Part shown: positions 20,310 through 44,100 of the stretch, in pieces
Layout: the number at the start of each line of letters is the position of its first letter
Position numbering within the stretch: position 1 is the stretch's first letter
Source: an uncultured Granulosicoccaceae bacterium
GTDB lineage: Bacteria > Pseudomonadota > Gammaproteobacteria > Granulosicoccales > Granulosicoccaceae
Reading direction: 5' to 3'
NCBI GenBank assembly: GCA_937927895.1
Contig: CALGKA010000061.1
Span: forward strand, 1-64,000
Length of the DNA stretch: 64,000 nucleotides
Notes under the pieces: model-generated
Database searches by the model: none
What the model saw: only the letters and a program-made list of their open reading frames with translations
What the model was told of the DNA's origin: nothing
Position numbers and translations under genes: made by a program

Positions 20310-20759
20310 CTAGGCAGTTGCTTCCTCCTTTGTCAGTAGTGTTTGAATCTCATCCGGGGTTTGGATCTGTGGGTTTATGGTTTGGTAACCTTGTTTTTGT
20401 ATCTTGGTGGCAAGCTCTTGATTGCAGGTCACCAGGATCGGGCGCGACATACAACCAAGGAAGCGGTAGATGCCTTCCATTGTTTTTTCTATAGAGGCAT
20501 CTTTACCTACCACTTTTAACCTTTTGTTTTTGTAGTGGGTGTTAAACAGGGAAAGTATGCTGTCTGCAGTGGATTGCCTTATCTCGTTGTTGTTGATCAT
20601 TTCTTCTATGCGCTGTTCAAACTCTGTTATTACCTGATTGTTGATTACGTATCGGGCCGCACCTTCTGATGAAAACATCCATCTCATGGTGGGCGTTGCA
20701 CGCTCTGATATAAAAAAACTTAGTAGCGCGTTGGTGTCTATAAACAAGATTTTTATCAT
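20310..20759 (-). CDS. PIN-domain protein
   Basis: This 149-residue protein starts FIDTNALLSFF, the PIN nuclease motif with the first catalytic aspartate at residue 8. An acidic residue follows in QVITEFEQRIEEM, and a later strand reads PILVTCNQELATKIQ, where PIN nucleases carry their remaining acidic ligands; the final aspartate is not obvious. PIN domains cut RNA with Mg2+ and are common toxins of VapBC pairs, but no antitoxin gene is next to it. It sits between imuA (38 bases upstream) and imuB in the same direction, an unusual place. It may be co-expressed with the mutagenesis genes under SOS control. Confidence 0.8.
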   Translation of the reverse strand: MIKILFIDTNALLSFFISERATPTMRWMFSSEGAARYVINNQVITEFEQRIEEMINNNEIRQSTADSILSLFNTHYKNKRLKVVGKDASIEKTMEGIYRFLGCMSRPILVTCNQELATKIQKQGYQTINPQIQTPDEIQTLLTKEEATA

Positions 20760-20797
20760 TATTTTTATGCTCTTGTGGTGTGTTATTTTTATACTGC

Positions 20798-21505: not shown

Positions 21506-21525
21506 GTTTCATTGAAAAACCTTTG

Positions 21526-21541
21526 TGGCAGTTATCTGCCA
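21526..21541. promoter_or_regulatory. perfect palindrome just before imuA
   Basis: TGGCAG-TTAT-CTGCCA gives a 6-base stem with a 4-base loop, 21 bases before the imuA start codon. It could be an operator or a hairpin in the mRNA leader. It does not match the CTGT-N8-ACAG LexA pattern. Confidence 0.35.
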
Positions 21542-21600
21542 GCGCCGTAGTGATGACGGGTTTTTGCCTGGTTTTATTTTCACTACTCATTTTATTTTTA

Positions 21601-21619
21601 CTACTAAAACGTTTAGTAG
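21601..21619. promoter_or_regulatory. CTACTAAA-ACG-TTTAGTAG palindrome upstream of imuA
   Basis: An 8+3+8 perfect inverted repeat lies 96-114 bases before imuA, in an AT-rich region suited to a promoter. It is a candidate operator. Its half-site resembles the TTAGTA-type half-sites of some non-enteric LexA proteins, but the two halves are in the opposite order. Confidence 0.35.
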
Positions 21620-21784
21620 ATTCTTTTTTAATTATTCTTTTGCCAAATGTCTGTTTACCATGATTTTCCTCACCACTATTTGTTGAGCAAAATGCCTTTA
21701 AGTCAAAACGGTAAACATCTTTTGTGTATAGGGGTAATCTAAAAATGTTATTTAAACCTTTTAATGCAAAAGCGTTATGGGGTT

Positions 21785-22429
21785 TTAATTTACGTTATGC
21801 CGTAGTACACCCACATAAATACCTTCAATTGAAAACTCTTGTTCTTTTAGATCAACCTCTATTGGGTCAAAATCATCGTTTTCAGGGTAAAGCGTGACTT
21901 TATTGCGATTGCGATGAAAACGTTTAACGGTGACTTCATCTTCAACACGGGCGACAACAATTTGTTTGTTTTGTGCTTCTTTGGCGTGATGAACGACCAG
22001 GAGATCGCCATCCAGGATGCCGACATTGCACATGCTCATGCCTTTGACCTTAAGCAGGTAGTCTGCTTTGGGGGAAAACAAGCTAGGATCTACCAGGTGG
22101 TGATCTTCAACGTTGGTTACTGCAAGAATAGGTTCGCCGGCTGCCACACTGCCTATAACGGGTAGGGGAATGGCTTCACCTGAGGTGGTGATAATACGAC
22201 ACGCTTCTACATGTTCTGCAGCAGCCGGCAAAATTACGATACCGCGGGATGCCCCGGGCAGGATGTCTATCATGCCTTTGCGCTCAAGGGCGCGCAGGTG
22301 TGATTCAGCTGCATTAGCTGACTTAAAACCTAACATATAGGCAATTTCAGCGCGGGTAGGCGGCATGCCATCATCGCGAATGCCCTGGCAGATTAGCTCT
22401 AATATTTCTTGTTGTCTTTCTGTAAGCAT
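21785..22429 (-). CDS. lexA: LexA repressor
   Basis: This is the master repressor of the SOS response, 214 residues. The N-terminal winged helix begins [17 protein letters not shown] and contains [20 protein letters not shown] with the recognition helix. The self-cleavage site is the A97-G98 bond in GSVAAGEP. The catalytic pair is S132 ([16 protein letters not shown]) and K169 (DEVTVKRF). On DNA damage, RecA filaments trigger cleavage and derepression. A LexA-box-like site lies 39 bases before its own start, consistent with autoregulation. Downstream, in the same direction, are imuA, the PIN gene and imuB. Confidence 0.97.
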
Positions 22430-22483: not shown

Positions 22484-22896
22484 CAATCAACAAGTAAACA
22501 AGCAAAATTTTCCTAAAATAATAATTTCTCAGAGGTAAAGGTTGCTGAAAGGCAAGTTGGGGTTGTCAGGTGGGGATGCCGGCTGGCGCAGCATTCTAAA
22601 TTATCAATGACTAATCAAAGCCCACAAAATGGCGTTTATCCTTTACTGAAGATCGAATGCGATACATTTATTCTATATGATAATTATTTGCGATTAATGC
22701 ATGCCTGGTAGCGACTACTTATAATGCGAATCTATTATGCGATTGCTTGTTCGCATAATGCCTTTATATCGAGTTGATAAGTTTTAATCGATCCCTTCAC
22801 AGGATTGGAATCAATCCTAAGGGTTAACAATTTCTCTAGCGGATTGGCTTGCTGGTTGTATTGGTGTTGGAACAAACCAAAATAGATTTTCAGGTT

Positions 22897-24468
22897 ATGC
22901 ACAACACCATACAAAGATACGCTGGTGTATTACTATCAGTCATTGTTTGTCTCTCTCTATCTGCCTGCGTGACTCGCCCGCACGTGATAACCCAGAGCGA
23001 GATAGATAAACGCGCCTCTGCTGATTTCGCGGCGATGTTTTCAGATAGCGTTCCAGAAGGGGGCACCATTACTCTCTCTGAGGCGATCGCGAGGTCAATA
23101 AAATATAACCTCGACAATCGTCTGAAAAGGATGGAGTCGGTGATTGCGCAGAAAAACCTTGATTTAAGTGACCTAAACAAGCTTCCGCAATTAGCACTTG
23201 ATGCAGGTTACACCGAGCGTAATCGTCGCCAGGCATCCAGCAGTTTAAACCTTGGCACCGGTGTGCCGAACTTTGGTGCGTCAACGTCACAAGACAAAGG
23301 TATTTTAAACGCTGACCTCACGGCCAGTTGGGATGCGCTGGATTTTGGCATTGCTTACATTGATGCAAAACAGTCTGCTAATGAAGTATTGATCGCTGCA
23401 GAGCGCCAGCGCAGAATGACGCAAAACGTTATAAAAGACGTGCGTTATGCGTATTGGCGAATGTTAGGCACCACGCGTTTACAAAACGCACTGACTCCAT
23501 TGCTACGTGAAATAAAGCAAGGTCTAAATGACTCTTACGCTGCACAGCAAGCCAAATTAAAACCAATAGAAGAGTGCCTTGAATACCAACGCGCGATGCT
23601 GGATATTCAGCGTCAAATGCTGACCCTGCAGCGTGAGATCAATGCAGCACGTGTAGAGCTAACAGCCATGATGGGTTTGCCACCAGGGACAAAATTTAAA
23701 GTTGATGGTAGTCGAGCTAGCACTGCACCCTACAGAACCGATGAAGTGTTTGATGCTGCAGGTCTGCAGCAGCTAGCTCTTAGAAACAGACCGGAGCTAA
23801 TAGAAGAGGACTACAAAGCACGTATTGCTGTTGATGAAATCAAAAAGGCGCGCTTGAAACTAGTGCCCGGGTTAGAGCTTTTTACTGGTGTCAATCACAA
23901 CGACAACAGTTTCTTGTTGTATGACGTATGGTCAGCCACCGGCTACCGTCTAACGTGGAATTTACTGAATATATTCAGTGGTAAAAAGGCCATTAGCATT
24001 GCCAAGTCATCACAGGAGCTGGGCAATATAAGGCGCATGGCATTAAGCATGGCAGTGCTTACTCAAGTGGAGATTGCCATGCATAAATTGAAGCAATCAA
24101 AAGAAGATTACTCTATTGCGCGGCAGATGAATCGCGTTGACAGCAGCCTTTACGAGCAATATGTTAATAAGCGTAATGCTTCTCAGATGGATCATTTATC
24201 TGTGGTTGAAGCAAAGGCTAGAAACCTGATTTCTATGCTGCGCCATTCGATGGCATATGCAGAATGGCAAAACTCTGTTGGTCAGCTGTACACAAGTATC
24301 GGTTATCAACCCGCAGCTGTTCTTAATTACAACGAAAATCTTGAAGTCTTAACTGAGCAGGTTAAGGCTTACCTAAATGCACCGGCGTTTTCTGAGAAAA
24401 ACGGTTTTTATGTGCCAGTAAATGCTGCGCAAATTCAGCGCAAATCAGCTGCGGTTGCTGCTCGCTAA
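22897..24468 (+). CDS. TolC/OMF-family outer membrane lipoprotein
   Basis: This protein is 523 residues from the ATG at 22897. The frame is open 16 codons further, but this start gives a proper lipoprotein signal with lipobox LSAC (Cys24). The sequence has the outer membrane efflux protein layout: TITLSEAIARSIKYNLDNRL, long coiled helices (LMTLQREINAARVELTAMMGLPP), an inner duplication and YRLTWNLLNIFSGKKAISIA. Such proteins trimerise into an outer-membrane duct that receives cargo from HlyD-type adaptors. It heads an operon with two adaptors, an M50-fusion protein and the giant repeat protein, so it is probably the exit channel of that system. The 34-base gap to the next gene supports co-transcription. 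Confidence 0.92.
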   Translation: MHNTIQRYAGVLLSVIVCLSLSACVTRPHVITQSEIDKRASADFAAMFSDSVPEGGTITLSEAIARSIKYNLDNRLKRMESVIAQKNLDLSDLNKLPQLALDAGYTERNRRQASSSLNLGTGVPNFGASTSQDKGILNADLTASWDALDFGIAYIDAKQSANEVLIAAERQRRMTQNVIKDVRYAYWRMLGTTRLQNALTPLLREIKQGLNDSYAAQQAKLKPIEECLEYQRAMLDIQRQMLTLQREINAARVELTAMMGLPPGTKFKVDGSRASTAPYRTDEVFDAAGLQQLALRNRPELIEEDYKARIAVDEIKKARLKLVPGLELFTGVNHNDNSFLLYDVWSATGYRLTWNLLNIFSGKKAISIAKSSQELGNIRRMALSMAVLTQVEIAMHKLKQSKEDYSIARQMNRVDSSLYEQYVNKRNASQMDHLSVVEAKARNLISMLRHSMAYAEWQNSVGQLYTSIGYQPAAVLNYNENLEVLTEQVKAYLNAPAFSEKNGFYVPVNAAQIQRKSAAVAAR

Positions 24469-24502
24469 ATTCGCTAAAAAGCAGCATATTAAGGGAATTA
24501 GT

Positions 24503-25261
24503 ATGAAGAGAATACAGATTAACAAACAACTCCAGAAGACCTTTATAGGCGCTGCAATTGTCGCGGCAACTTGCGTTTCAGGGCCGGCGTTATCGCAAAC
24601 ACAAACACTTGAATTGGCAGCGGTTGTTAAGTCGGACGATACAGCAATTTTATCTAGCCAGATGGACGGGCTACTAACAAAAGTGCATGCTCGTGTCGGA
24701 GATACATTTACAAAAGGCGATGTTCTTTTATCTATTGAATGCACTTTGCAATCGGCAGCACTCGCTAAAGCCAGGGCAGAAGTTGAGTATGCGCGCAATG
24801 AATATAAATCTACCAGCGCGCTAGAGGCGCTTAATTCTACCACTAAGGTTCAGGTGGCGCGCAGTGCGGCGGAATTCGCCAAAGCAAAAGCAGAAATGCA
24901 AGCGGCAGATTTTAGAGTCAGCCAATGTCAAGTTCTGGCGCCTTTTGATGGGACTGTGATTCAAAGCTGGGCCAAAACGCATGAGTCTGTTAATGCGAAA
25001 TCCAAATTACTAGAGATAGTTAATAACAACAACTTAACCGCTGAATTTCTAGCACCGTCAAACGCTATCAACGATCTTACCACTGGCCGTTCATTTAAGT
25101 TGTTAGTCAGTGAGACCGGTAAAGGCTACACAGCCACTATAGATAAGGTAATTCCGTTTGTAGATTCGGTGAGTCAAACCGTAAAGGTGATTAGTCGCTT
25201 AGATTCTAATGATACCGGGCTCTGGGCTGGCATGAGTGGTTTAGTCATTCTAGATGAATGA
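24503..25261 (+). CDS. HlyD/RND-type periplasmic adaptor
   Basis: This protein is 252 residues, starting at the ATG at 24503 behind an AAGGGA site; the longer open frame overlaps the previous gene without support. A signal sequence ends PALSQ. The protein is a short membrane-fusion adaptor: a lipoyl half (LSSQMDGLLTKVHARVGDTF), a helical hairpin rich in Ala/Lys/Glu (about residues 80-130), the second lipoyl half (CQVLAPFDGTVIQSWAK) and a beta-barrel ending GLWAGMSGLVILDE. Adaptors bridge an inner-membrane component and a TolC duct. At 252 residues it is shorter than AcrA or HlyD and lacks a large membrane-proximal domain. Confidence 0.92.
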   Translation: MKRIQINKQLQKTFIGAAIVAATCVSGPALSQTQTLELAAVVKSDDTAILSSQMDGLLTKVHARVGDTFTKGDVLLSIECTLQSAALAKARAEVEYARNEYKSTSALEALNSTTKVQVARSAAEFAKAKAEMQAADFRVSQCQVLAPFDGTVIQSWAKTHESVNAKSKLLEIVNNNNLTAEFLAPSNAINDLTTGRSFKLLVSETGKGYTATIDKVIPFVDSVSQTVKVISRLDSNDTGLWAGMSGLVILDE

Positions 25262-25326: not shown

Positions 25327-26673
25327 ATGCAAGACAAGTTAATTAGTCGACTCACTGATTTCATACAGTTTGAGCAAGAGATACGAAACGCTACCAGTAT
25401 TGAAGCGTTAGGGTTTACGGCGTGCAATTACTTGCGTCGTCTGTTGGCCTATGATGTTGCTTTGTTGTTGTTAGAGAAATCGAAAAGTCAGAGAGTTCTT
25501 AGTATCTCAGGTGTGTCTGACTTTGACCCGCGTTCACCTTTGGTTACTGCGGTTGAATCCCTTTGCAATAACCCGCAAGTACCTTTGCAAAGTGCACACG
25601 TGCACCTAACCCGTGAGTTGCCACGTGATACGGCACAGAAGCTCTCTGATATTCAGTTGCAACAGGTAGCGACAGTAGGGCTTAAGCCTGTAAATGGTAA
25701 ACATAACAATAGTAAAAATTCTACATTGGTGCTTACTCGTGATAAGCCATGGCAAAAACACGAGATTCAACTGTTACAACAAGTAGGCGATGTACTCGCC
25801 CATGCGATATCGGCATTGCAGAAAAGCCGCCGCATGCCGTTGATAAAAACACTGATACCTGGAGTCAAGCCGGATTGGCGCTGGGCTGTTTGTGGCTTGT
25901 TATTGGTATCAATAATTCCTGTGCCTCAAAGTGTTGTTGCAAGCGCCGAGGTAACCGCAAAATCACCGCTGGTGGTGGCCTCTGGTCTGAATGGTGTAGT
26001 GGAAGAAATATTGGTGCGGCCAAATGAACAGGTTACCAAGGGGCAACTTTTGTTGCGCTTTGACAGTACTGATCTTAGTCATAGAAAGAACACACTGCAG
26101 CAGGAACTTTCCTTAGCGCAAGAGCGCTTGCGCAAGGCGCGTCAACATTCTCTAAATTCAACCATTGAACGTAGTGAGTTTGCGGAGCTTGAATCGCAAA
26201 TAGAGCTAAAGCAATTAGAACTGGATTACATTAATGAGTCAATCACACGCTTAGAGTTACGCGCTGACTCTGATGGCGTGGTGTTGTTTAGTCGCGCTCA
26301 GGACTGGATGGGGCGAGTCGTTTCTACCGGCGAAAAAATTATGGAAATAGCCGATGCCGAAGACAACCAGTTCGAAATATGGGTGGCGGCCAATGATGCT
26401 ATTGAAATAAACGAAGGAAGGGCCATTAAATTTTTCCCCGATGCGCAACCTTTACAATCGGTTAAAGGGTCAATAGATTCTGTTGGATTTTTTGCCACCT
26501 TATCAAATACTGATGAGCTGGCCTACAGGGTAGTGGCGGCACCGTCTGACGAGCAAGATACTCTTCGCTTAGGTATGAAAGGCACAGCGCGGCTGTACGG
26601 TAAAAAAGTATCGTTGGCATACCATGTATTACGCAAGCCAATTAGTGCCATTCGCAAAACAGTTGGCGTATAG
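25327..26673 (+). CDS. HlyD-like adaptor with N-terminal GAF-like domain
   Basis: This 448-residue protein has two parts. Residues 1 to about 165 look like a cytoplasmic GAF-type sensor: SIEALGFTACNYLRRLLAYDVALLLLEKS and NSTLVLTRDKPWQKHEIQLLQQVGDVLAHAISAL, the usual last GAF helix. One membrane helix follows (WAVCGLLLVSIIPVPQSVVA), then a periplasmic HlyD adaptor. That adaptor has a lipoyl half (ASGLNGVVEEILVRPNEQVT), a helical hairpin (about residues 255-305), a second lipoyl half (LRADSDGVVLFSR) and a beta-barrel. The fusion could let a cytoplasmic ligand gate export. Its stop is 2 bases before the next start, so the two proteins are made together and may form one complex. Confidence 0.9.
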   Translation: MQDKLISRLTDFIQFEQEIRNATSIEALGFTACNYLRRLLAYDVALLLLEKSKSQRVLSISGVSDFDPRSPLVTAVESLCNNPQVPLQSAHVHLTRELPRDTAQKLSDIQLQQVATVGLKPVNGKHNNSKNSTLVLTRDKPWQKHEIQLLQQVGDVLAHAISALQKSRRMPLIKTLIPGVKPDWRWAVCGLLLVSIIPVPQSVVASAEVTAKSPLVVASGLNGVVEEILVRPNEQVTKGQLLLRFDSTDLSHRKNTLQQELSLAQERLRKARQHSLNSTIERSEFAELESQIELKQLELDYINESITRLELRADSDGVVLFSRAQDWMGRVVSTGEKIMEIADAEDNQFEIWVAANDAIEINEGRAIKFFPDAQPLQSVKGSIDSVGFFATLSNTDELAYRVVAAPSDEQDTLRLGMKGTARLYGKKVSLAYHVLRKPISAIRKTVGV

Positions 26674-26675: not shown

Positions 26676-29012
26676 GTGAATGCGCTGGAGCCGACGAGCC
26701 CTGTTAGGGGTAAGCAAAAAGCAGATGGTTGCCCGGCGCATGCCGGACATGCGAGTGTGTCTGAGCTTATTGGTCTTGAGTCTACCGTTGCGCGACAATC
26801 TGCGCCTGCACCGTCAGAAACACTATATAACAGATTATCGGGTCAAGCTACGACAGATCATGTAGTAGAGTCTTCCAGCTCTGATCAACCGATAGAAACG
26901 CTGCCTGTTTTGCGATCTGATTTGGTATTGCATCCTGCGCAGTTTGACAAGGGCGGACAACCTAAATGGACGCTGCATGATCCAATCAGAGGAAAGTATT
27001 ATAGGCTGGCGTGGCTTGAATTTGAATTGCTGAGTCGTTGGCATTTGAACGATGCTAACAAGCTACTGAACACAGTCAATGCCGAAACAACACTTTATGT
27101 GAGTCGAACGCATGTTGATGCTTTGCTCTCTATGCTTAAGAGCAACGAATTAACTCAAGCGCGATCTGATCATGATTTGCAACTGTTGAGTTCAAAACAG
27201 AAAAAGCCTGATGACCTCACTGTAAATTCGACTCTGAAGTCGGCATTTACTTTTTCAATGTTCTATCGAAAGCCATTGCTTAACCCGGATGCTTTTTTAA
27301 CCAATACGAATCGACTACTGCAGCCGCTGTATGCTGCAAAAAAAGCTATGTTGGTAGCGTGGTTGTGCATGGCTGCTATCGCCCTGTATGGAGTAGGCGC
27401 CCATTGGTTTGAGTTTCGTAGCACGTTTACGCAATTTATGACACCCGAAGGCTTTTCTGTTTTTGCGCTTGTTCTGGTGCTGATCAATGCTCTACATGAG
27501 GTGGGTCATGGACTAGTGGCGAAGCATTATAACTGCAGGGTGACTGAAATGGGAGTGGCGCTTATTTTTATGCTGCCAGTTTGCTATTGCGATACAAGTG
27601 ATACGTGGCGACTCACCGATAATCACAAAAGGCTGCTAGTGAGTGCTGGTGGAATAGTAATGGAGCTTGGCATTGCGACGATTGCTTGCTTGTGTTGGTT
27701 GGTATTGCCTGACGGTTTGCTCAGAACGCTGGCGTTCTTTTTAACAGTGACCTCCCTTGCTGCCACGTTGTTCATTAACTTGAACCCATTTATGAAGTTT
27801 GATGGCTACTATATTCTGGCAGATTCACTTGGCGTAGATAACTTACAGACAAAGTCGTTTAGTAATCTACGTTGGCAACTGCGCCGTTGGTTTACCGGTG
27901 TTAAAGAAGATAAGCCTTATAGAATCCCTGAAAGTAGTCATCGGCTAATGAACCTGTATGCCTTTAGCACCTGGATCTACCGGCTTGTTTTGTATTTTAC
28001 CATTTGTTGGATGGTCTATCAGTTCTGGTTTAAGGCCCTGGGACTTTTGCTATTGATTGGAGTATTTGTAACCATGATTGCCACACCCGTAATAAAAGAA
28101 TCAGCACAGTATGTTAGCTCTATTAAAAGAACCGGTATCAATATAAGAAGCGGCCTTTTTTCAATGGGCTTAGTGGCTATGTTGGCGCTGTTGGTGGTGC
28201 CATTACCGCGAAAAGTAACGGCGCCGGCGGTGTTAAGTAGTGTGCATACCTCAATGCTTTTTGCCACTAGTGCCGCACAAGTTAGCGCAGTGCATTTTGG
28301 GTTAGGTGACAACATAACAGAAGGACAAAAGTTATTGACGCTTTCGAACCCTGAATTTGAATACCAAAACGCCAAACTGAAGCGGGAGTTAGCCACTCTT
28401 AGAAAAAGAAAGCAGCTGGAAACACAGTGGCGCGCTAGTACTAGTGTCACAGAGGTCGGTGAATACGATATTGCTGCTCTAATGGCGTCGCTAAAAGAAA
28501 ATGAAGAACACATGAGCTCGCTTGAGCTTTTAGCGTCTGCGGATTCAACCGTAACTTCTGTGCCCGCATGGCTTACTGAAGGTGTGTGGGTTGATGCTAA
28601 TACAGAGCTGGCAGAGCTTGCTTCAAAGAGAAAGATAGAGGTGCGGGCTTATGTGCCTGCGGCCAGGCGTGGTCTGCTCAAAGAAGGTGGTGTTACTTTC
28701 TACTCTAGTACTAGCGGTAGGCGTGTAGGCCTCGATATCAAGACTATTGGAGATTCAAGTATTGATAGGCTGAATGATAAAGCACTTGCGGTTACCAATG
28801 GTGGTGATATAGCCGTTTCGAAAACTGCTGTTGGACAGCTACAACCAATACAGGATTGGGTGCTGGCGGTACTGACACCGGCAGATGGATCTGAACTTGA
28901 AATCAATAAAGAAACAAGTGGGTACGTGCTTTTTCCCGCTACTGCAAAGAGTCTGCTAGTAAGTGCTTTTGACAGGCTCTACGGTGTAGTTATCAGGGAA
29001 AGCGGGTTTTAG
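26676..29012 (+). CDS. M50 (site-2-protease-like) membrane protein with adaptor-like C-terminus
   Basis: This 778-residue inner-membrane protein starts with GTG, 2 bases after the previous gene. Residues about 80-190 resemble a PqqD-like or winged-helix region (LHPAQFDKGG, WTLHDPIRGKYYRLAWLEFE). Several membrane helices follow with a site-2-protease active site: HEVGH at residues 274-278 and NPFMKFDG at 370-377, giving two His, Glu and Asp for zinc. After the last helix (MGLVAMLALLVVPLP) comes a periplasmic HlyD-like tail with a lipoyl half (VSAVHFGLGDNITEGQKLLTLSNP), a short coiled coil and barrel segments. This combination of intramembrane protease and adaptor replaces the ATPase expected in type I export. 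It may process or gate the giant protein encoded next. Confidence 0.9.
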   Translation: MNALEPTSPVRGKQKADGCPAHAGHASVSELIGLESTVARQSAPAPSETLYNRLSGQATTDHVVESSSSDQPIETLPVLRSDLVLHPAQFDKGGQPKWTLHDPIRGKYYRLAWLEFELLSRWHLNDANKLLNTVNAETTLYVSRTHVDALLSMLKSNELTQARSDHDLQLLSSKQKKPDDLTVNSTLKSAFTFSMFYRKPLLNPDAFLTNTNRLLQPLYAAKKAMLVAWLCMAAIALYGVGAHWFEFRSTFTQFMTPEGFSVFALVLVLINALHEVGHGLVAKHYNCRVTEMGVALIFMLPVCYCDTSDTWRLTDNHKRLLVSAGGIVMELGIATIACLCWLVLPDGLLRTLAFFLTVTSLAATLFINLNPFMKFDGYYILADSLGVDNLQTKSFSNLRWQLRRWFTGVKEDKPYRIPESSHRLMNLYAFSTWIYRLVLYFTICWMVYQFWFKALGLLLLIGVFVTMIATPVIKESAQYVSSIKRTGINIRSGLFSMGLVAMLALLVVPLPRKVTAPAVLSSVHTSMLFATSAAQVSAVHFGLGDNITEGQKLLTLSNPEFEYQNAKLKRELATLRKRKQLETQWRASTSVTEVGEYDIAALMASLKENEEHMSSLELLASADSTVTSVPAWLTEGVWVDANTELAELASKRKIEVRAYVPAARRGLLKEGGVTFYSSTSGRRVGLDIKTIGDSSIDRLNDKALAVTNGGDIAVSKTAVGQLQPIQDWVLAVLTPADGSELEINKETSGYVLFPATAKSLLVSAFDRLYGVVIRESGF

Positions 29013-29105: not shown

Positions 29106-32100
29106 ATGTTAAAGAACATGTTAAAACGCAAAGCAACTACAACGAACCTTGACAAGGCTGGTGCGCCTGGTCATTGGAGTGAAGGTTTGTATCCGCCATC
29201 TGAAGCGATGCCACTTGAGCCGCGCATTATGTTGGACGGTGCGGCGCCCGCAATGCTTGTTGATGCCATAGACGAACTAGGGGCAGATGCTCATTCTGTA
29301 GAGGTTGAAACCCACAAAGATACTCAGTCTAAAGAGTCGCAATACCCTGCATCAACCTTAACGGTGGGTGAGTCGAAGCGCAATGAAGTAGTGATTGTCG
29401 ATACTACAATAGATGGGTATCAGGAGTTACTGAGTGATCTTGTCGGTAATACCGATGAGCTCTATTGGCAAACTGACGAGACTACAGGAATTGAGTCTAT
29501 AATTGCAGAGCAACACGACCGACTAGTCTCAATATATGCTGTTGACGGCCAGCAATCTGGTTTAAAAAGTATTACAGAAATTCTTAGCGCCCAAGTTGAT
29601 ATCGATGCAGTTCATGTGCTGTCTCATGGCACCGAAGCAGGGCTGATATTTAACGGTAGTGTGATAGGCACAGACCTACTGAAAAATAATGCTAACGCTG
29701 TTGCAAGTTGGGGTGATTGCTTAACAGCAGATGGCGATATTTTATTGTACGGCTGTGACACAGGTGTGGCAGGTGCAGGTGTAGAGTTTGTACAGCAGTT
29801 GTCAGCACTGACACAAGCCGATATTGCAGCTTCGGATGATCCCACAGGGAGCTCACTTAATAACGGTGACTGGGATCTTGAAGTTAGCAGTGGTCCAATA
29901 GAAACTGAGTTGGTAACAGAAGAACAAGCACAGGTAGCGTTTGTAGGTTTGCTTAGTGCTGATCCGGTTGCAACTGTAGATACTCCCGCTTCGGGGTTCA
30001 TTAACGAAGCCTTTGAATTTACTGTCACCGCAGACAATAACGGTACTGATACTGGGTATTCGCCGTACCTAAACGTGTTTGTAGAACCAGGTGTTAACGT
30101 TAACAGTGCCTCGCTTTTTGGCAGCACATTGGCAACGCAATCTTATACATGGGATGCTGTCAGCAGTAGCTGGTTGGATAGCGCAAGCAACTCACTAACA
30201 GAGCACCCATTGGACCCTGCCATATCATTGCCAGCTGCACCCGCAGTTAATGGGTCAGAATGGATCCTGGTTGACTTGCCCTATGGCAGTTACGTGCCTT
30301 CACAACCTCCGGCTGAGATTCTATTTGACGCAACATTAGACCCGTCGCAAGGGGCGGCACTAGGGCAGCCAATAGGCATTACAGCACAAATGGGTTTTGA
30401 GTTAGGCGAAGATCCGTATAATAATCCGGATACGGATGCACCGATTGTAGGGCCACTCAATAGCGAGACAATCACACCAACGGTTCTTCAGATCGAAAAG
30501 ACTGCCGATAACTATACGCCGGCTGTCATTGGTGAATTGGAAAATGCCACGGGTCCAAATAACCCCACCACATTTATACTGACCGTTGATCTGGCTGACG
30601 GGCAAACGGTCGACAATATATTACTGAGTGATGTAGTGCCGAATAACGTGCATTACCTAGGAAGTTTGACGGTAGCAGGGTCGGGTAGTCAGGTGAGCCT
30701 TGGTACTTCAGATGCCACTATCGGGGTGCACAATAACAACGAACTAACGGTGAGCTTTGCAAGTGTTACCGGTACCGCATCGGACGACGATATACTCATT
30801 ACCTACCAAGGTTATATACCTGAAGTTGACGCCAATGGTGACCCAATATTAGGTGCTACTAGTGGCAGCCCTGTAGGCCCGGTTGAAAACACGGTAGATA
30901 TAACTGGTCTGTCCGGGGGGGTGATGGTATCGGGCTCAGATACCATTGAGATCAATCCACAAGCGGTTGCGATACAAAAAGCGTCCACCATACTCGATAG
31001 CACCGGGACGACTGTCGCAAGAAATACCATTCTCCCGGGGGACCTCCTTGAGTGGTCTCTGACCATTCAGGTGTCAGATTACTTTTCAATGGAAAATTTC
31101 GAAATCACTGACAATTTTAGTGATGGTCAGCTGTATGTTGCAGGCAGTGAATCTGTTGAATTATTTCACAACGGAACTGCAACCGGGCCTTCAAGTATTT
31201 CAGCGACTAACGTCACTCTAGGGACAATTGACCCTGCAACTGGTCTCACTGAAGTGGCTTATGATTTGTCTAATATCATTGCAACTGAATTGCCCGCAAG
31301 TGCCGGCGTTCTTGATGGTGATCTAGTAGACGGAACGCAATCTGGCAAGACTACCGCGCTGATAAAATTTCGCACGCAAGTGCAAGAAGAATTTCAATAT
31401 CCTTCAGTGCCAGGCGGCAACGCCAGTGTTGATGTTGGTGACGCGCTAACGAATAATGTAAACATATCATCAGAAGTAGAGGGTACTGGTAATACGGTTA
31501 CCAATGTGAGTACCGATAGAGTCCAGGTTGATATACCGGTTGCCACAAAAAGTATTTATGCGATTAACCAGGATACCGACAATTGGGATACTTCAGATCC
31601 AGAAATAGCACCAGGTGAAAGTATCACTTACCGTATTACCGTAGAGCTTCCTACCAGTGATGTTGAAAATCTAAATATTACAGATTACCTGCCACTGCCT
31701 ATTTTTAAGGCAGCGCCAAACTATGCGTATACAGGTATGTATTCGGGTGTTGATAATGTCCCGGCCCCTGGAGAATACGGCTTTGGACCGCTAACTGATC
31801 CAGCAGATTTTCCATCATATTTTTTTGATGCCACTGGTAACTCGCTAGATATTGCAAGTGTAACGGTTAGCAGTACCGATAATACAGTTAATTGGGATTT
31901 CGATGCGTTCAGTCAACCGAATTCTGGTGGTGGAGTTGTTGATCTCCTTTTTACTACAGCCACTGCTAACGTAAAGTTTGCAGATGGATTATCGCTTACC
32001 AATCAGGCGTTAGTATCATACGACAATACCAATAACCCTCAGGAACCGATTGGATCAATAATTTCTGTTAGCCCGATCGCACCCGATATAGCACTTACTA

Positions 32101-35100
32101 AAGGGGTTGTGTCGGTTGACTCTACTTCAACTGGCGCATTTACCCCGGCCGCTGTAGGGCCTGTTACTTTTAATGATGCTGGCACCGCTGGTGCTGCGTT
32201 TTCAGGTGCCGTGACTTCACCGGGTCTTATTGCTACGCCTATAGATTCTGATGTTAGTGGTCTGGATGCTGGTGATATTGTGCGCTTCGCCATCACCATA
32301 GAAAACAAAGGCAGTTTTGACGCGACCGATATTACTGTTAACGATAACTTTCCACCAGAGTTTGCCATTCCGCCTGGTGGTCTTAACATGACTGCAGCAT
32401 TGGGTGACGGCACGCCATTGGCCATTACCGGTGATCTCTTTAACACGTCAGGCTTGCCTGACTCAACCGGGGTGAGTTTCCAACAAGGTGGTAGTACTGC
32501 TTATATTGGTGCCGGCGAAGTCGATGACACTCTGATTACGGATGGCAGCAATATTTTTGTACTCACCTATGATCTCATGGTGGGTACCAATGCCTTGCCT
32601 ATTAGCACACTTGAAAACACTGCTGATCTACTTACCTTTTCGGCAATTGCCGGTGGGGTAGATTACACCGATGGGGAAAACAACCCGGGCTGGACCGATG
32701 ACGCAAGTGTTACCACTGATACGCCTTCAATAGATAAGGGTTTAACCTCATCAGGAATCATTGATAGCACAAACCCTTTAAACCGTGCGGTACCCGGTGA
32801 GTTCATTGACTATCAAGTAGTAATTACGGTGCCTGAAGGGACATTCCCTGCAGCACAGATAAGAGACGATCTTGATGCAGATGTTAGGTTTCATGAGATA
32901 CTGGGCATAACAAGTAGTGCAGATGTCACGACTAGCCTTGCCAATGGTTTTAGTGATGTAGTATCACCGACACCAGGTACCACGGGCCTTACCTATTTTA
33001 ACTTAGGTGATATTACCAATACCAACACCGACAACAGTGTAGATGAAACAATAACAGTTGATTATAGGGTCTACGTAAAAAGCGACGCTAATGATTTTGC
33101 ACTCATTAGAAACCGTGCCTATATCTTTTGGGATACCACCGGAAATGGTAATCCTAACTTTCAGAACATATGGGATAGAGCACCCAACTTACGAGTAGTA
33201 ACGCCATTTCTTGATGTTCAAAAAGAAATAACAGGCCAACCACCTGTTGATGTGGGCGACACCGTTACCTATAGTATAACAATACAACATGAAAACACTA
33301 TTCTACCGACTTCAGATACGCATGCGTACAACGTTAATTTTAGCGATACGCTGCCATCTGAAATAGGCGGTATTTCTATTGTTTCAGTGGTAGATGGATC
33401 AGGGGCTGCGGTTCCGGGTTTTACGCTTTCAGGCAATACTATTGCTAATCCCGATTTTGATTTGCCCTATGGCGAATCAATTACCGTCACGGTAACCGGT
33501 ACCGTGAACTCTGCATCCGCGGGCGCTGAGGTTGTTAATACGGCTGACATAAGTTGGACAACCCTTGACCCGGACAATCCGGATGACGGTATAGATGCGG
33601 TTGAACCGACGCTGCTAGACAGTGACTCTGCATCTTATACTGTGACTGACCCGATATTAACCAAAAGTGTTGTCAGTACTGGCATCAATAGCACTACCAA
33701 TAATAATGCTCAAGTGGTGAACGGTGAATACGTCATCTACCGTTTGTCAATCAGTGTTCCTGAAGGCGTAACGCCCACGGCCTCTATTGTGGATCAACTG
33801 CCTTCTAATATAATTTACGATCCTACTTTTACACCTATTATTACCTTAAGTAGTGGTGATTTTGCCACTGAGTTGCCCGGTGTGCCACCCACGGTATCTG
33901 GAGGTGAAGTAACCTTCGATCTGGGCACGATTAAAAACAGCAATAATAACAATAACGTTATTGAAGCAATTACCATTGAGTATCGTGCCTATGTTTCGGG
34001 TGCAGCGCCAACCGATAACCCTACCAATGTCGCTGACTTCAGGTGGGATAAAGACGGCGATGGATCAAACACAGGCCCCAATGATGGATCCCAGATTAGT
34101 AGCACTTCGCTTGAGGTGGTAGAACCCATCCTGGACGTTATAAAGAGCGTTGTGCCTGGTACTGCCGATGCAGGTGATACAGTTGAATACACTATTGAAA
34201 TACAACACACACCAGCATCAGAGACAGATGCTTTTGACGTTGCATTTAAAGATGACTTGCCGATTGAGTTAGGATCAATATCTCTTGTCTCTGCACTAGA
34301 TAGCGGCGGTGCGGCGGTTGCGGGTTTTGCAGTTGTTGCTAATACGGTTTTCAACAATGATTTTGACTTACCGCTGGGCGAGACCATTACACTCACGGTT
34401 ACGGGTGTTGCTCAAACCAGTATTTCTGCGAGTACCACAGTATCTAACACGGCGGAATTAGAGTGGGATACGCTAGGAGACGATACACAAGGCAATCAAT
34501 TAGCCGAAGATACCAGGATTGCTACAAGTGAAGCAGACTTCATAGTACCATCACCTGAGTTTACAAAAACTCTGGTCAGTACTGGAATAGCCAATACAGA
34601 CAATGCGAACAATGAAGTAGTCGCCGGTGAGTATGCTACCTATCAATTGGAAGTAACAGTGCCGGAAGGCACGACGCCACTTGCGACGATTATAGATACA
34701 TTAGATGAAGACCTAATCTTTGACCCGACTTACACAGTTACAGTAGTAGCTAGTGCGAATGTTGTCTTTTCCGGTAGTCCAGCAGCGCCCTCTGTTTCCG
34801 GTAGTTTGGTTAAGTTTGACTTTGGCACAATTACAAACACCAATACCGATAATGCTGTTGACGATACCATTACGATCACTTATCGCGTTCACGCCAACAG
34901 GGATTTACAGCTCGCTGATGTACTAATAAATACCGCAGAGTTGCAGTGGGATTCTGATAACGACAATAACATTGATAATAATGATCTAACGCTAACCAGC
35001 GGCAATAGCTTGCTGGTAATAGCGCCAGAGCTACAGGTACTTAAGTCTATCAGTACCGTACCGATCGATGCGGGTGATACCGTTGTGTATGATTATGTCA

Positions 35101-38100
35101 TTAGTCACACAGCAGCGTCTAACGCTACAGCACTAGATGCAAGCTTTACTGATCTACTGCCGCCAGAGATAGACGCAGTATCAGTTGCCGCTGTTGATGG
35201 TAATGGTGTAGCGGTACCGGGTTTTACCATTGTGCCGGGTTTTCCGCAAGATGCTGTTGTGAACCCTGATTATGATCTGCCAGAAGGAGAAACAATAACT
35301 GTCACCGTGACAGGTGTTGTTAATACCACCGCTTCTGCAAGTACCAGTGTGGTCAATACCGGTGTAATAGATTGGGATTCACTGGGCGACGACGTAGAAG
35401 GTAACCAGGACTACGAAGACTCAAATAGCAATTCAAGTAGCGCCAGTTTTGTGGTTTCATCACCGACCTTTACAAAATCATTGGCAAGCACCGGAATTGA
35501 TGATGCGAGTAACGCACAGAATGAAGTGGTTGCAGGGGAATTTGTAACCTATGAGTTAAGGATGGTTGTGCCGGAAGGTACTACGCCTATGGCAAGTATT
35601 ATTGATACTTTGCACGCCGATTTAGACTTTGACACAGCGTTTGGTATTACGGCTGAAGCAAGTGCCGGGGTACTGTTTACCGGTAATGCGACTTCCCCTA
35701 CCGTAGCAGGGAATGACGTCAGTTTTGATCTTGGCACCATTAGCAACAACAATGCAGACAACACAGTAGAAGATACCATTGTCATTACCTACCGTGTTTA
35801 TGCCACGGCAGCAGTGGCAAGGGGCGATATACTGCCGAACGTGGCAGAATTTACCTGGGATTCAGACAACGATGGCGATATAGACACTACCGATTCCTTA
35901 TTAACGAGTGGATCTACTGTGCAGGTTATTGAGCCTGAATTGGTCATAGATAAGTCTATTGCGACAATTCCTTCAGATGCTGGCGATGCAGTTGTTTATA
36001 CCTACTCAATAGAACATACAGCAGCCTCTGATGCGGCAGCACTTGCTGCTAGCTTTACTGATTTACTACCTGCTGAAGTTGCCGCAAGTACCGTTGCCGC
36101 TGTTGATAGCAGTGGCGGTGCTGTTGCGGGTTTTAATATTGTGTCTGGTACACCACAAGACAGCGTTGTTAATACGAATTTTGATTTACCTTTGGGTGAA
36201 ACCATTACGGTTACCGTAACAGGGGTCGTCAATACTACAGCCTCCGCTGGTGCCACCGTTGTTAATACCGGCACCATAGATTGGGATACATTAAGTAATG
36301 ATACTCAAGGTAATCAACTGGAAGAGGTTACTGGCAGTAGCTCAAGTAGTGCACAATTTGTTGTGGTATCACCGGTTTTTGATAAGGAGCTTCTCAGTAC
36401 CGGAATAGATGATGTAAGCAATGACGCCACCCATGTGGTAGCGGGGGAATATGCAACCTATTCTGTAGAAATAATCGTCCCTGAGGGAACCACACCTGGA
36501 GCCACAATAACCGATACGCTGCACGCTAATCTTCGATTGGATACTGGTTATTCTATCACCACAACGGCCAGTAGTGGAGTTGCCTATACGGGTTCACCGA
36601 ATTCACCTACCGTTTCAGGCAATGATATTGTTTTTGATTTAGGCACGATAACCAATACCAATACAGACAATAACCTGCCTGAGACTATCACTATAGTGTA
36701 TCGCGTGTATGCAGACAGTGATGTGCTCAGGGGCGATACCCTGGATAACAACGCAACGTTTAGTTGGGTGGTGGATGACGGCGCTACGCAAACTATCAAT
36801 ACACTTAGCGATTCGACAGATGTCACTGTCATTGCGCCGGAAATGGTAGTGGAGAAATCCGTATCGCAAATGCCTGGTGAAGTCGGGGATAACATTGAAT
36901 ACACCATGGTACTTCGTCATACAGACGCAGGCGATGCCCCGTTACCGGCTTCTGACACCGCTGCCTACGATGTGGCTTTTAGCGACTCTTTACCAGCGGG
37001 CTTAATTAATCCCGCAATAGTGTCGGCGGTTGATAGTAGCAATACGGCAGTTTCAGGGTTTACATTAAGCGGTAATACCGTGAGCCATGCAGGGCTTGAT
37101 ATTCCGCTGGGTGAAACCATTACGTTAACCGTTAGTGCAGAAGCCGGAGCAGCCATTGTCGAAGGACAGAACGTAGACAACATAGCGCAAATCAACTGGA
37201 CAACACTTGATGATAATTCAGATGATGGTTTTGATGCAGGTGAGGCTTATGGTAGTGCCAACGACAATGCTATTTTCTCGCTCAGTGATCTAGAGAAATC
37301 CATTGTATCTACCGGTATCGATGATACAAGCAACGACAACACCGAAGTAGTCACAGGCGAATATGTTGTCTACGAGCTGATAGTAACCGTACCGCAGGGT
37401 ACCTCACCGCTTGCCGAAATTGAAGATACGCTAGACGCAGGGTTAATCTTCGATCAAGCGTACCCGGTTACGGTTTCCCCTAGTAGTGTAAATTTAACGA
37501 CCAGCGTCGCACCGGGTGACTTTAGTGCTGTAAGCACCAGTTACGATGCAGCCAGCGGTCTGATCAGTATTGATCTTGGTGACATCTCTAATGCAGCGAC
37601 TGGCGCGACTATTGAAACCTTAACGGTGACCTATCGCGCGTATGTAGACAACGATACGGTTAATGCACCCGTTGGTGGCGTGCTTAACAATGACGCAGAA
37701 TTCAAGTGGGATATCGATGCCGATGGCAGTAATGAAGGCCCGTTAGATGGAAGTACTGGTGCTGCAGCCCCTCATGTAGACATCATAGGGAATGAACTTC
37801 AAGTATCAAAGCAACTGACGGTAGTGCCGACAGATGCTGGTGACACCGTTACCTATGAAATGGTCATTTCGCATAGTGCTGCATCAGAGGCTGCTGCATT
37901 TGACGCTACCTTTAGCGATACGCTACCTGCAGAGGTCAGTTCGGTTGCGGTTATATCAGCTGTTGATGGTTCAGGCGCTACAGTGCCGGGCTTTGCAGTA
38001 AGCGGTAACACGGTAAGCAATCCAGATTATGATTTACCACTCGGTGAAACGATAACTATAACGGTAAGCGGTATAGTTAATAGCAGTGCCTCTGCTAGTT

Positions 38101-41100
38101 CAACGGTTAACAATGCGGCTGATATCACATGGGATAGCCTGGGCGATGATAGCCAGGGCGTGCAGGGCGTTGAAACTGAGGGTACAGCAACAGCTTCTGA
38201 TGACTTTGTAGTGGCATCACCGACTTTTTTAAAATCTATTGCAAGTACGGGAATCAATGACAGTAGCAATGATAACTCATTGGTTGTAGCTGGCGAATAC
38301 GTAACTTATGATTTGGTGGTTGTTGTGCCCGAAGGCACAACGCCGCTGGCTCAAATCACCGATACCTTGCATGCGAACCTGTTGTTTGATCCCAATTACA
38401 CCATAACAGCAGCCACTAGTGCTGGTGTGTCGTTTACGGGGCTCGCGACCACTGCCGTTGTGAGTGGCAGTGATGTGACCTTTGACCTGGGTACTATTAC
38501 CAACCTCAATTCTAATGACACCGTAACCGATACCATTACTATTAATTATCGAGCTTATGCCGACCAGGATGTAGCCAGCGCCGAAATTTTAACCAATGAT
38601 GCCACACTCATTTGGGATGCTGATGCCGATGGCGACAATAACGATAATGACGGTGCACTGACTGACACTGCTCAAGTGAGTGTTATTACACCACAATTGG
38701 TGGTAGAGAAAGATGTCTCGGTTATGCCTTCAAGCGCTGGTGATCCTCTTGAATACACCATAGTGATTCGCCATACCGGTGTTGCAGATACTCCATTACC
38801 CGTATCTGCAACCAGTGCTTACGATGTCATATTTAGCGATACGCTCCCACCTGGAGTAGACAACAGCTCTATTGTGTCGGCGCTAGACAGCTCGGGTGCA
38901 GCGGTGGCTGGGTTCACGCTTACCGGTAATGCCGTGAGCCATCCGGGGTTTGACCTTGCACGCAATGACTACATAACTCTCACTATAGCGGCTGAAGCAG
39001 GGGCCTTAATCACTGCTGGTGATACCGTTACGAATACTGCTGAGATCATCTGGTCAACACTTGACGATAATGCTCTTAGTGATGGTTTTGATGACGCAGA
39101 ATCAGGCGGTGATGCTGACGATAATGCTGTTTTCTCACTGGCTGATATAGAAAAAACGATTATCAATACGGGGGTCAATGATGCCAGTAACGACAATACA
39201 GAAGTAGTAACCGGTGAATACATTACGTACCAATTGCAGCTAACGGTTCCACATGGCAGTACGCCTTCGGCTGAGATCGAAGATACACTGGATGCTGGTT
39301 TGATCTTTGATCAAGCGACTGGCATAACGATTGTACCGGGCAGTGCTAACCTGAGCACCAGTAGTGTACCGGGTGATTTTAGTAGCGTTGTTACCACCTA
39401 CGATGCAGCAAGCAATATCATTAGCATTGATTTAGGTGATATCACTAACAGCGCGCCTATCGGCACAGTAGAGACACTCACCATTACGTATCGAGTTTAC
39501 GTCGATAACGATGCCCTCTACGCTGATGTCGGCGATCTGCTAAATAACGCTGTAGATTTTAAGTGGGATATAGACGGTGACGGAAGTAACGATGGCCCAA
39601 CTGATGGTACCACTACAAGTACAGCCCCCGATGTAGTCGTTATAGCACCTGAGTTACAAATTTCCAAACAGGTGATAGTGCCACCCAATGATGCGGGCGA
39701 CACCGTAACCTATGAGATGGTTATATCACACACAGGTGGTTCACAAGCGGCGGCTTTTGATGCTAGTTTCGCAGACACACTTCCATCTGAAATAAGTAAC
39801 GTTTCTGTTGTATCGGCAATCGATAGTTCAGGTGCGACAGTTGCGGGCTTTGTCGTTACCGGAAATACAGTAAGCAATCCGGATTACGATCTACCACTCG
39901 GTGAGACAATCACACTTACCGTTTCGGGTATTGTGAATACCACGGCATCTGCCAGTACCACTGTAAACAATATTGCACAGATTGATTGGGACACTTTGGG
40001 GGATGATACCCAGGGGTATCAGCCAGTAGAAGGTACCGGTACTGCAAGCGCTAGTGATGATTTTGTTATGGCTTCTCCGACCTTTGAGAAATCAGTAGCA
40101 GATACCGGTATAGATAACCTTAGCAATGACAACACAGAAGTGGTAGCGGGTGAGTTTGTAACTTACGATCTTGTGGTGACAGTGCCGGAGGGCACCACGC
40201 CAATGGCGCAAATCACAGATACTTTACACGCGAATTTGTTGTTTGATTCAAGCTACGCTATTGCCGCCACTGGCAGTGCCGGCGTTGTCTTTACCGGTCC
40301 TGCTACCGCACCTATCGTGACAGGTAGCAATGTGGTTTTTGATCTAGGGACTATCACAAATACCAATACTGATGACACTGCCCCTGATACCATCACAATT
40401 ACCTACCGTGCGTACGCAGACACTGATGTTGTTAGTGCAGAGACCTTAGATAATAACGCGACTCTAATCTGGGATGCAGACAACGACGGCGACAACACCG
40501 ATAACGATGGTGTGTTAACTGACACAACCGATGTAACGGTGATTGCAGCGAATATGTTAGTCGAGAAAGCAGTCACGCTAATGCCGGCAGATATTGGTGA
40601 CACCATTGAATATACAATGGTCATTCGCCATAGCGATGCCAGTGATGCACCCGTTGTAGCTTCAGAAACAGGCGCTTATGATGTGATCTTTACTGATGTG
40701 CTTCCTGCAGGGCTTATCAATCCTTCGGTAGTGTCTGCGGTAGACAGCAGTAATAGTGCTGTAAGCGGCTTTACAGTGGCAGGCAACACTGTGAATCATG
40801 CAGGGCTTGATATTCCGTTAGATGAGTTTATTACGTTAACGGTTAGTGCTGAGGCAGGTCCTTCGATTGTTGAAGGTGACACCATAGACAATATTGCGAT
40901 CATCAATTGGACAACACTTGATGATGCCGCCAATGATGGATTTGACGCCGGAGAATCCGGCGGCACTGATTCAGACAATGCGAATTTCTCAATTGGTAAC
41001 ATTGAAAAGACCGTCTTAAACACTGGTATTAATGACGCCAGCAATGATAATTCAGAGGCGGTCACAGGTGAATATGTAACCTATCAGTTATCGATAGAGA

Positions 41101-44100
41101 TTCCACAAGGTGCTTCAGCAGTTGCTGAAATTGAAGATACACTTGATGCCGGGCTAATTTTTGATCAGGGCTTTGGCGTTACCGTAACTCCAAGTAGCAG
41201 CAACTTAACCACTAACACGGCACCGGGTGATTTCAGTAATGTAGCCACCACCTATGATCCGGTAACGAATCTCTTAAGCATTGGCTTGGGCGATGTTAAT
41301 AATTCTGCGGCCACCGGTACGGTAGAGAGCTTAACTGTTACTTACCGCGTATACGTTGACAATGATATTTTCAATGCTCCAGTCGGTAGTGCCCTGAACA
41401 ACGCAGTAAACTACAAATGGGATATCGACGGTGACGGAACCAATGATGGCCCTCTGGATGGCACCACAGAGGCGGCAGCACCAGAGATAGAAGTTATTGC
41501 GCCAGAGCTTGAAATCGCTAAGCAAGTGATTGTTGTACCAGCCGATGCGGGTGATATTGTAACCTATGAGATGGTTATCTCGCATACCGGCAATTCACAG
41601 GCAGCGGCCTTTGATGCGACTTTCACAGACACATTACCGTCAGAAATAAGTTCTGTATCAATTGTGTCAGCATTAGACAGCAGCGGTATCGCAGTGCCAG
41701 GTTTTGTAGTAAGTGGTAATACAGTAAGCCACCCTGATTATGACCTTGCTTTAGGCGATACCATTACCTTAACGGTAACAGGTGTTGTCAATACCACTGT
41801 TTCAGCCAGCACTACTGTTACAAACACCGCTTCTATTGATTGGGATACCTTGGGTGACGACAGTCAGGGTAATCAGGTAGTGGAAGATACCGGTACCGAT
41901 AGCGCCAGTGATGATTTTATTGTGGCATCGCCTGCGTTTGCAAAGTCTATCGCGGGCACCGGTATTAATGACCCATCTGCCGCCACTGAAAACGACAATA
42001 GCGAAGTGGTCGCAGGCGAATACGTTACTTATGATCTAGTGGTTACAGTGCCTGAAGGTACGACGCCAATGGCACAGATCACCGATACCCTGCAAAACAG
42101 CTTACTGTTTGATAGTAGCTATCCAATAACAGCAGTTGGCACTTCTGGTGTGGCCTTTACTGGTGCTGCGACCGTACCAACGGTTAGCGGCAATGATATT
42201 ACCTTTGATCTTGGCACGATTACTAACAGCAATATTGATGATTCAATTCCTGACACCATTACTATTACTTACCGTGCTTATAGCGCCCAAACGGTAGTGT
42301 CAGGTGATACGCTATCAAACAATGCGACCTTAACCTGGGATGCAGACAACGACGGTGACAACAACGACAATGACGGCACGCTGAGTGACTCAACTGATGT
42401 AGCTGTTATTGCACCAGAACTAGTGGTTGAAAAAAGCGTATCAGTGATGCCATCAGATATTGGTGATCCACTTGAATACACTATTGTTATTCGCCACACT
42501 GATCCAGGCGACGCACCGCTGCCGGTATCAGAGACTGCAGCTTACGATATTACCTTCAACGATGTACTACCAGCTGGTATAGATAGCCCCGGTATTGTAT
42601 CGGCATTGGATAGTACGGGTAATACCGTTCCGGGCTTTAACCTAACAGGCAGCACAGTTACGCACACTGGTTTTGACCTGGCTCACAAAGATACGGTCAC
42701 TTTAACGCTTAGCGGTATAGCCGGCTCAACCATTGTAGAAGGCGATACAGTAACCAATACCGCTAACATTAATTGGACAACACTTAACGATACCAGTGAC
42801 GACGGCTTCGATGCCGGTGAGTCTGGCGCAAGTGAAACTGACAGCGCTGTGTTCTCAATAAGTGACATTGAAAAGCGAATTGTTGAAACCGGAATCAATG
42901 ATACGAGCAATGATAACCTTGAGGCCGTAAGCGGTGAATACGTTACCTATGAGCTTGTAGTGACTGTGCCGCACGGTACTTCACCGGTGGCCGAGATTGA
43001 AGATACCCTTGATGCAGGTTTGGTCTTTGATCAAGCTAATGGTGTGACGGTAGTGCCAAGCAGCACGAATCTCACGCATAGCACAGCACCCGGTGATTTC
43101 AGCGCCGTGGCAGCGAGCTATGATGCTGCCACCAATCTTGTAAGCTTCGATTTAGGTGATATTACTAATACAGCAGCCGAGGGCACGGTTGAAACGCTTA
43201 CCGTTTTTTACCGGGTTTATGTAGCAAATGATGCCATCAATGCCGGTTTGGGTGCTACGTTAAATAACGCTGCTGAATTCAAGTGGGATATCAATGGTGA
43301 TGGCATCAATGACGGGCCAACTGACGGCACCACTGAAGCCGTCGCTCCAGATGTCACTATAATTGGCCCGGAGTTACAGCTAACAAAGCAAGTCGCTACC
43401 GTGCCGAGTGACGCCGGTGATATCGTTACTTATGAAATGTTGATAGAGCATACGGGTACTTCTACAGCTGCCGCATTCGATTCAACTTTTAGCGATACTT
43501 TGCCATCAGAAATAAGCAATATATCGATCGTTTCCGCTCTTGACAGCAGCGGTGCCCCAGTGCCGGGCTTTAGTGTTAGCGGCAATTCTGTAAGCAACCC
43601 GGATTATGATCTGGCCCTCGGTGACAGCATAACGCTAATTGTAACAGGCACAGTAAATACTACAGCCTCTGCCAGTACTACAGTGATCAACACCGCCAAC
43701 ATCGGGTGGGAGACTCTGGGTGATGATTCACAGGGTAATCAAAGTGCACAAGATTCAGGCACAGACCAATCAAGTGATAGCTTCGTACTTGATTCACCAG
43801 TATTTTCTAAATCAATTTCCGGTACCGGAATCAATGATTCGACCAACAACAATTCGGCGATTGTGGCGGGTGAATATGTTACCTACGATCTAGTGGTTAC
43901 CGTGCCTGAGGGCACAACACCGCTTGTACAGATAACAGATACGTTGCACAGCAACCTGATCTTTGACCCGGGTTTTGGTATTACTGCCACCGGTTCATCT
44001 GGAGTGTCGTTTACCGGTGCGGCGATAAACCCTGCAGTGGCAGGTAGCGATGTTATTTTTGATCTTGGTACGGTTACCAATACGAACACTGATGATTCAG

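Follow-up and report, generated by a model that had tools for sequence, protein, structure and literature searches.

How a protein of several thousand residues leaves a Gram-negative cell, and what an intramembrane protease would contribute to its export, is the question raised by a locus in a 64,000-nucleotide stretch of DNA from an uncultured Granulosicoccaceae bacterium (the window). A cassette with the gene order OMF, adaptor 1, GAF-like adaptor 2 and, in fourth place, a protease-adaptor fusion is followed by a giant gene of 22.6 kb. The features are listed below, all on the forward strand.

22849..24468 (+), OMF (TolC-like OEP), first cassette gene and conserved in relatives; Pfam OEP PF02321, 3.1e-25
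24422..25261 (+), periplasmic adaptor 1 of the HlyD/RND-MFP type; HlyD_3, 6e-14; TIGR01730, 2e-34, above cut-off
25327..26673 (+), adaptor 2, a GAF-like N-terminal domain, then a TM helix and a HlyD arm; HlyD_3, 1e-12
26676..29012 (+), fusion protein of an RRE/PqqD-like domain, a site-2-protease core and an MFP arm; HMM, fold and alignment evidence
26889..27155 (+), RRE/PqqD-like domain, residues ~72-160; AlphaFold2 topology, Foldseek match to TbiB1, PF05402 in 8/31 members
27495..27509 (+), HEVGH zinc/catalytic motif, residues 274-278; invariant residues in relatives
27783..27806 (+), NPFMKFDG motif with the third zinc ligand, residues 370-377; conserved in relatives
28203..28955 (+), barrel-sandwich/hairpin periplasmic adaptor arm, residues ~510-760; Foldseek matches to MacA/MexA, HlyD_3
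29106..51674 (+), giant candidate substrate of 7522 aa with DUF4347 and DUF11 repeats; ORF and domain searches
29214..29243 (+), LExR tag LEPRIMLDGA, giant residues 37-46, proposed leader signature; NF012209 LEPR-XLL
29388..29954 (+), DUF4347 domain beside the tag; PF14252, 7e-42

The OMF, the two further adaptors and a giant ORF whose N-terminus lacks a hydrophobic signal peptide are as described in an earlier sequence-only reading of this DNA. The TTG start of the OMF at 22849 is uncertain; translation from an ATG at 22897 instead would yield a typical lipoprotein-like signal. The true start of adaptor 1 is probably at 24503, and the GAF match of adaptor 2, at 0.0014, is weak and falls below the cut-off. 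The window cassette contains no ABC, RND or MFS pump and no anti-sigma or sigma gene, and the cassettes of relatives likewise contain no ABC transporter.

Architecture of the fusion protein

The fusion gene has a GTG start and is intact, encoding 778 aa. Pfam searches placed Peptidase_M50 at residues 263-341 (2.3e-8), a domain present in 31/31 members of the fusion family, and HlyD_3 at residues 618-695 (9.3e-9). The daptide HExxH metalloprotease model of NCBIfam, NF041824, aligned with residues 162-461 (2e-45), its 155.5 bits falling short of the curated cut-off of 300 for equivalog membership, and the YydH/LiaK model NF058609 matched at 7.5e-11, also below its equivalog cut-off. The profile searches thus recovered the M50 domain that the sequence-only reading had expected, whereas its PqqD-like region went undetected by HMM in the window protein itself and was found as PF05402 (PqqD) in 8 of the 31 family members, with a best value of 5e-4. 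A sequence search of the fusion protein against the PDB gave zero matches.

An AlphaFold2 model was built with 31 relatives. The mean pLDDT was 82 for the full-length protein and 89 over residues 72-512, with values below 50 only at residues 1-70 and 179-185. The N-terminal domain is modeled with three strands followed by three helices (beta-beta-beta-alpha-alpha-alpha), a winged-helix topology, and the site-2-protease core spans residues ~205-507, with HEVGH and NPFMKFDG located in predicted membrane helices. Foldseek comparison of the core model returned only two meaningful PDB fold matches, the site-2 protease of Methanocaldococcus jannaschii as the top match (3b4r, probability 0.97, E only 0.027) and TbiB1, an RRE whose structure includes the leader peptide (5v1v/5v1u, probability 1.00, TM-score 0.72–0.73 on the target); the E-values are modest, and the architectures agree with the prediction from sequence. 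The C-terminal arm matches MacA best (3fpp, E 1.6e-11) and also MexA. The fusion protein is therefore, by motifs and fold, an M50-type site-2 protease, its modeled N-terminus is an RRE-like fold of the kind that would bind a leader, and its modeled C-terminal tail is an MFP/HlyD adaptor arm comprised of barrel-sandwich, hairpin and beta-barrel. This bears out the three-part anatomy first proposed from the sequence, including the lipoyl/barrel tail, for which a predicted structure of the monomer had been suggested as the check. RRE domains bind leader peptides, M50 enzymes in RiPP pathways cut off leaders, and MFP arms dock onto OMFs.

Both predicted zinc-ligand motifs are present, and residues His-274, Glu-275, His-278 and Asp-376 are identical in all 133 relatives aligned, with Asn-370 retained in 131. 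The conservation extends to the 54 of these relatives that were not picked through the NPxxxFDGY pattern, as the same four residues are kept in 54/54. Such invariance indicates that the active site has been maintained, and catalysis by the fusion protein is very probably needed, with proteolysis as the predicted activity.

The giant protein and its N-terminal tag

The N-terminal 398 aa of the giant scored 17.0 bits with NF012209, exactly at the cut-off of 17, and 15.5 bits in the genome scan, and no RTX Pfam match was found in the last 624 aa. LEPR-XLL (NF012209) and DUF4347 (PF14252), which we take to be labels without an assigned function, are both present on the window giant and are here tied to a specific export cassette. 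Among the giants adjacent to fusion genes, a basic N-terminus precedes the consensus L-E-x-R-hydrophobic3-D-[GA]-A, in which L, E, R and D are each present in 49 of 50 distinct sequences, the search pattern itself having demanded the general shape. An S-A-D ending also occurs, giving L-E-x-R-(hydrophobic)3-[D-G/A-A or S-A-D] overall. Among the 51 named loci with 8 kb or more on each side, 36 show the tag; for 9 of the 15 without it, the N-terminal end of the neighboring giant lies beyond the edge of the locus. As a control, the tag pattern was found in 13 of 2,665 ORFs. At its N-terminal peak, the hydropathy of the tagged giants (median 1.43) was clearly lower than that of the OMFs (2.42) and adaptors (2.28) encoded at these loci.

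The stop of the giant gene is overlapped by the start of an L,D-transpeptidase gene (YkuD, 6e-22; 51674-52624), the product of which could anchor the surface protein or remodel the wall for it.

Distribution of the cassette and tag subtypes

Close orthologues of the fusion protein within the same bacterial order are 38–63% identical over the alignment. Their genes sit in an identically arranged cassette, and the giant follows immediately wherever the contig continues; the nearest named relatives are Granulosicoccaceae MAGs. The cassette occurs beside a giant in Gamma-, Beta- and Alphaproteobacteria and in Nitrospirota. Cassette and tag were both found in Pseudomonas, Pectobacterium, Pantoea, Kosakonia, Halomonas, Rhizobium, Azospirillum, Nitrospira, Variovorax and E. 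coli, and the cassette occurs in Methylobacter, Methylobacterium and others. In the best 80 of 557 confirmed candidate relatives, all of them named, the GAF-adaptor is present in 78 and adaptor 1 in 75. Annotated plasmid records from Azospirillum, Variovorax, Kosakonia and E. coli list the same series, TolC family, efflux RND adaptor, HlyD family, HlyD family/peptidase and then the giant, which is annotated as Ig-like, DUF4347 or tandem-95. The fusion gene is present in 24 of 5,426 complete E. coli genomes and is mostly plasmid-borne. A commensal E. coli IncHI1B plasmid (L283, NZ_CP060066.1:20836-38214) carries a full D-type cassette with a 3,668-aa giant tagged LESRQLFDGAA, and in Variovorax paradoxus (L284/L279, CP063167.1:19413-68132) a 16,239-aa giant of tandem-95 repeats, tagged LEARYMFDAAA, adjoins the cassette.

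The association of fusion and tag was examined at the level of loci and of genomes. The 48 genomes of the order that were examined contain 84 fusion genes, 28 of which have a LEPR/DUF4347 N-terminus no more than 6 kb away. The giant lies downstream on the same strand in all 28 cases, where ~0.8% would be expected per gene under uniform placement, a rough null. Across 232 Gammaproteobacteria, the fusion is present in 18 of 22 LEPR-positive genomes, which span 15 families, and in 17 of the 210 others (Fisher p = 8e-14). In several of these 17, the fusion has a neighbor with a diverged tag (LEPRMMFDGA, LEQRVVLDAA, LENRIVLDAA). Of the four LEPR-positive genomes without a fusion, two have their match in ORFs below 170 aa and two (G113 and G235) have a different tag. 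The link of the fusion and its cassette to LExR giants is strongly supported. The giants of G113 (L287) and G235 (L286) bear a third tag subtype, LEQR(L/V)LLS(T/A)SP, and may use another exporter.

The tags fall into a D-type, LExRxxxD[GA]A, and an S-type, LExRxxx[SA]xD. In a tree of the 76 fusion proteins with a tagged neighbor, one branch with support of 1.0 splits all 15 S-type from all 61 D-type proteins, so that subtype matches clade in 76/76 cases. Being one deep split, this supports co-inheritance and specificity and does not prove repeated co-evolution. The window cassette is D-type, and the window genome holds both types. A second fusion, 24% identical to the first, is encoded on contig C12, and at least four S-type giants with tags such as LEPRVLFSAD are found on contigs C4, C97 (two) and C98 (loci L289-L291). 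These giants do not adjoin an exporter and are probably served in trans. With D-type and S-type loci both present, the cell is predicted to run two export lines side by side, each with its own leader code. The S-type cassette on contig C12 (L047:7673-16127; GAF-adaptor, fusion, adaptor) adjoins a PAS-GGDEF-EAL protein, which suggests by analogy that c-di-GMP may control it, as for other giant adhesins.

A model for export and its alternatives

Taken with the tag, this architecture points to the fusion protein as a dedicated inner-membrane component of a tripartite exporter without a cassette ABC, recognizing and cleaving the leader of its substrate, an assignment that we regard as probable. 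The cytosolic RRE/PqqD-like domain would bind the N-terminal leader of the giant through the L-E-x-R-(hydrophobic)3-D-[GA]-A tag and present it to the intramembrane zinc site, where it would be cut at or near the tag, and this cleavage would license or couple export. The fused arm and the two separate adaptors would join the membrane core to the TolC-like channel, allowing the giant to cross both membranes in one pass. The S-type clade would draw its energy from a SecA-like ATPase of its own, and the D-type clade of the window perhaps from the housekeeping SecA. Leader binding, the cleavage and where it falls, which component forms the inner-membrane pore and what supplies the energy are points that we infer, and it is speculative that the membrane core itself forms the pore; we know of no site-2 protease core that lets whole proteins pass. 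From the placement of the gene in an export operon beside a substrate without a signal peptide, the sequence-only reading had suggested processing or gating as its role. The LExR-giant link and the RRE-like N-terminus support such a role, and catalysis on the giant would be its predicted form. Beyond the view of that reading lay the wide spread of the cassette, its lack of an ABC transporter, the tag as the likely leader and the SecA-like ATPase of one clade.

The SecA-like gene (~650–760 aa) lies directly downstream of the fusion in 21 of 23 S-type clade cases; of the remaining two, one lies where its contig begins, with a LEPR giant downstream. Both G-x-GK[ST] and DEAD motifs are present in the six of these ATPases that were checked. 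The sampled fusion-negative genomes contained no SecA-like gene of this kind, and no strongly hydrophobic ORF of SecY size was seen near the SecA-like genes. In the D-type clade of the window the cassette has no SecA-like gene, and the window genome has the housekeeping SecA only.

The most serious alternative is that another engine, either a T1SS ABC encoded elsewhere or SecYEG, moves the giant, with the fusion merely trimming the leader or controlling release or retention at the adaptor-OMF duct. The window genome does encode a LapB-type T1SS ABC on contig C14 as well as the housekeeping SecA, the SecA-like genes of the S-type clade hint at a Sec-type engine, and site-2 proteases are not known to us as pores. 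However, the cassette has no ABC and its substrates have no Sec signal, and the LapB-type ABC is not enriched in genomes with both LEPR and fusion (6/18 versus 60/214, p = 0.41). In the 12 of these genomes without LapB, nothing of the HlyB or PrtD type beyond generic ABC exporters was found in nine, while one passes the HlyB cut-off, one passes the PrtD cut-off and a third candidate is weaker. With no association to LapB and few HlyB or PrtD matches, a recognizable T1SS ABC being missing from most genomes tested, a T1SS ABC is unlikely as the engine. SecYEG could still serve as one, and we consider this alternative as a whole unlikely, at roughly one chance in four.

A maturation and export function for a small RiPP-like peptide, the giant gene being merely co-regulated, would fit the RRE fold and the nearest NCBIfam models, which are RiPP leader proteases (daptide, YydH/LiaK), yet it appears improbable, as no conserved small precursor gene was noticed and the conserved neighbor across phyla is the tagged giant. 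Still less credible is a signaling site-2 protease that carries out regulated intramembrane proteolysis of an anti-sigma factor with its adaptor arm incidental, since, despite the M50 fold and intact active site, no PDZ domain was found in the fusion protein, the cassette has no anti-sigma or sigma gene, and the arm and the OMF and adaptor neighbors are constant. A small-molecule or metal efflux pump, compatible with the OMF and RND-type adaptor homology, can practically be dismissed given the cassette without RND, MFS or ABC pump and the strict link to LExR giants.

Comparison of the leader-reading exporter with known systems shows both shared and distinct features. Type I secretion of giant adhesins (LapA/LapBCE, SiiE) likewise uses an adaptor and a TolC-like OMF for a giant repeat surface protein, with the substrate gene beside the exporter. 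In contrast to those systems, the cassette has no ABC, its inner-membrane component is the RRE/site-2-protease/adaptor fusion, a LExR tag at the N-terminus of the substrate is proposed as the signal, and there are two extra adaptors, one of them GAF-like. T1SS membership was rejected as there is neither a cassette ABC gene nor a genomic association; the system resembles a type I tripartite exporter but fails the defining ABC feature and is not filed as one. The RiPP M50 leader proteases (daptide NF041824, YydH/LiaK NF058609) have the same intramembrane metalloprotease core, to which the fusion adds an RRE-like domain and an MFP arm, and its apparent substrates are thousands of residues long. 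Accessory Sec (SecA2/SecY2) and the S-type clade have in common an additional, dedicated SecA-like ATPase encoded next to genes for giant surface proteins; unlike in accessory Sec, no SecY2-like gene was seen nearby, the SecA-like protein is shortened to ~650–760 aa, the hosts are Gram-negative, and the gene is absent in the clade of the window.

The fusion cassette is a widespread machine that is apparently undescribed. Its description was not found in the literature searched, which covered few subscription sources and no preprints, so that novelty is provisional; LEPR-XLL, DUF4347 and related topics received passing mentions only (PMC10868602, PMC9611531, PMC12322963), and a paper on the Methylomicrobium S-layer (PMC13274458) deals with an ordinary T1SS. 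Tentatively, and with slightly less than even confidence, we propose an undescribed Gram-negative secretion class in which the RRE-S2P-adaptor fusion reads and cleaves the LExR leader and, with two adaptors, the OMF and in one clade a SecA-like motor, would form an ABC-independent conduit for the largest surface proteins, its D-type and S-type lines coexisting in the window genome. Many of the largest predicted bacterial proteins (7,522 aa here and 16,239 aa in Variovorax) carry LEPR-XLL without a known exporter. The pairing of tag and cassette in culturable Pseudomonas and commensal E. coli makes the exit route of these giants directly testable. If the proposal is true, site-2 proteases and RRE domains would gain a role in whole-protein secretion, and SecA-type ATPases possibly a partner other than SecY.

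Elsewhere in the window, three secreted-looking proteins (1160-2020, 13761-14609 and 16723-18099) have repeated DGDGWGW(D/N)G-like motifs, and genes at 18484-22429 on the minus strand resemble, by eye from the sequence, a LexA-ImuA-ImuB mutasome operon.
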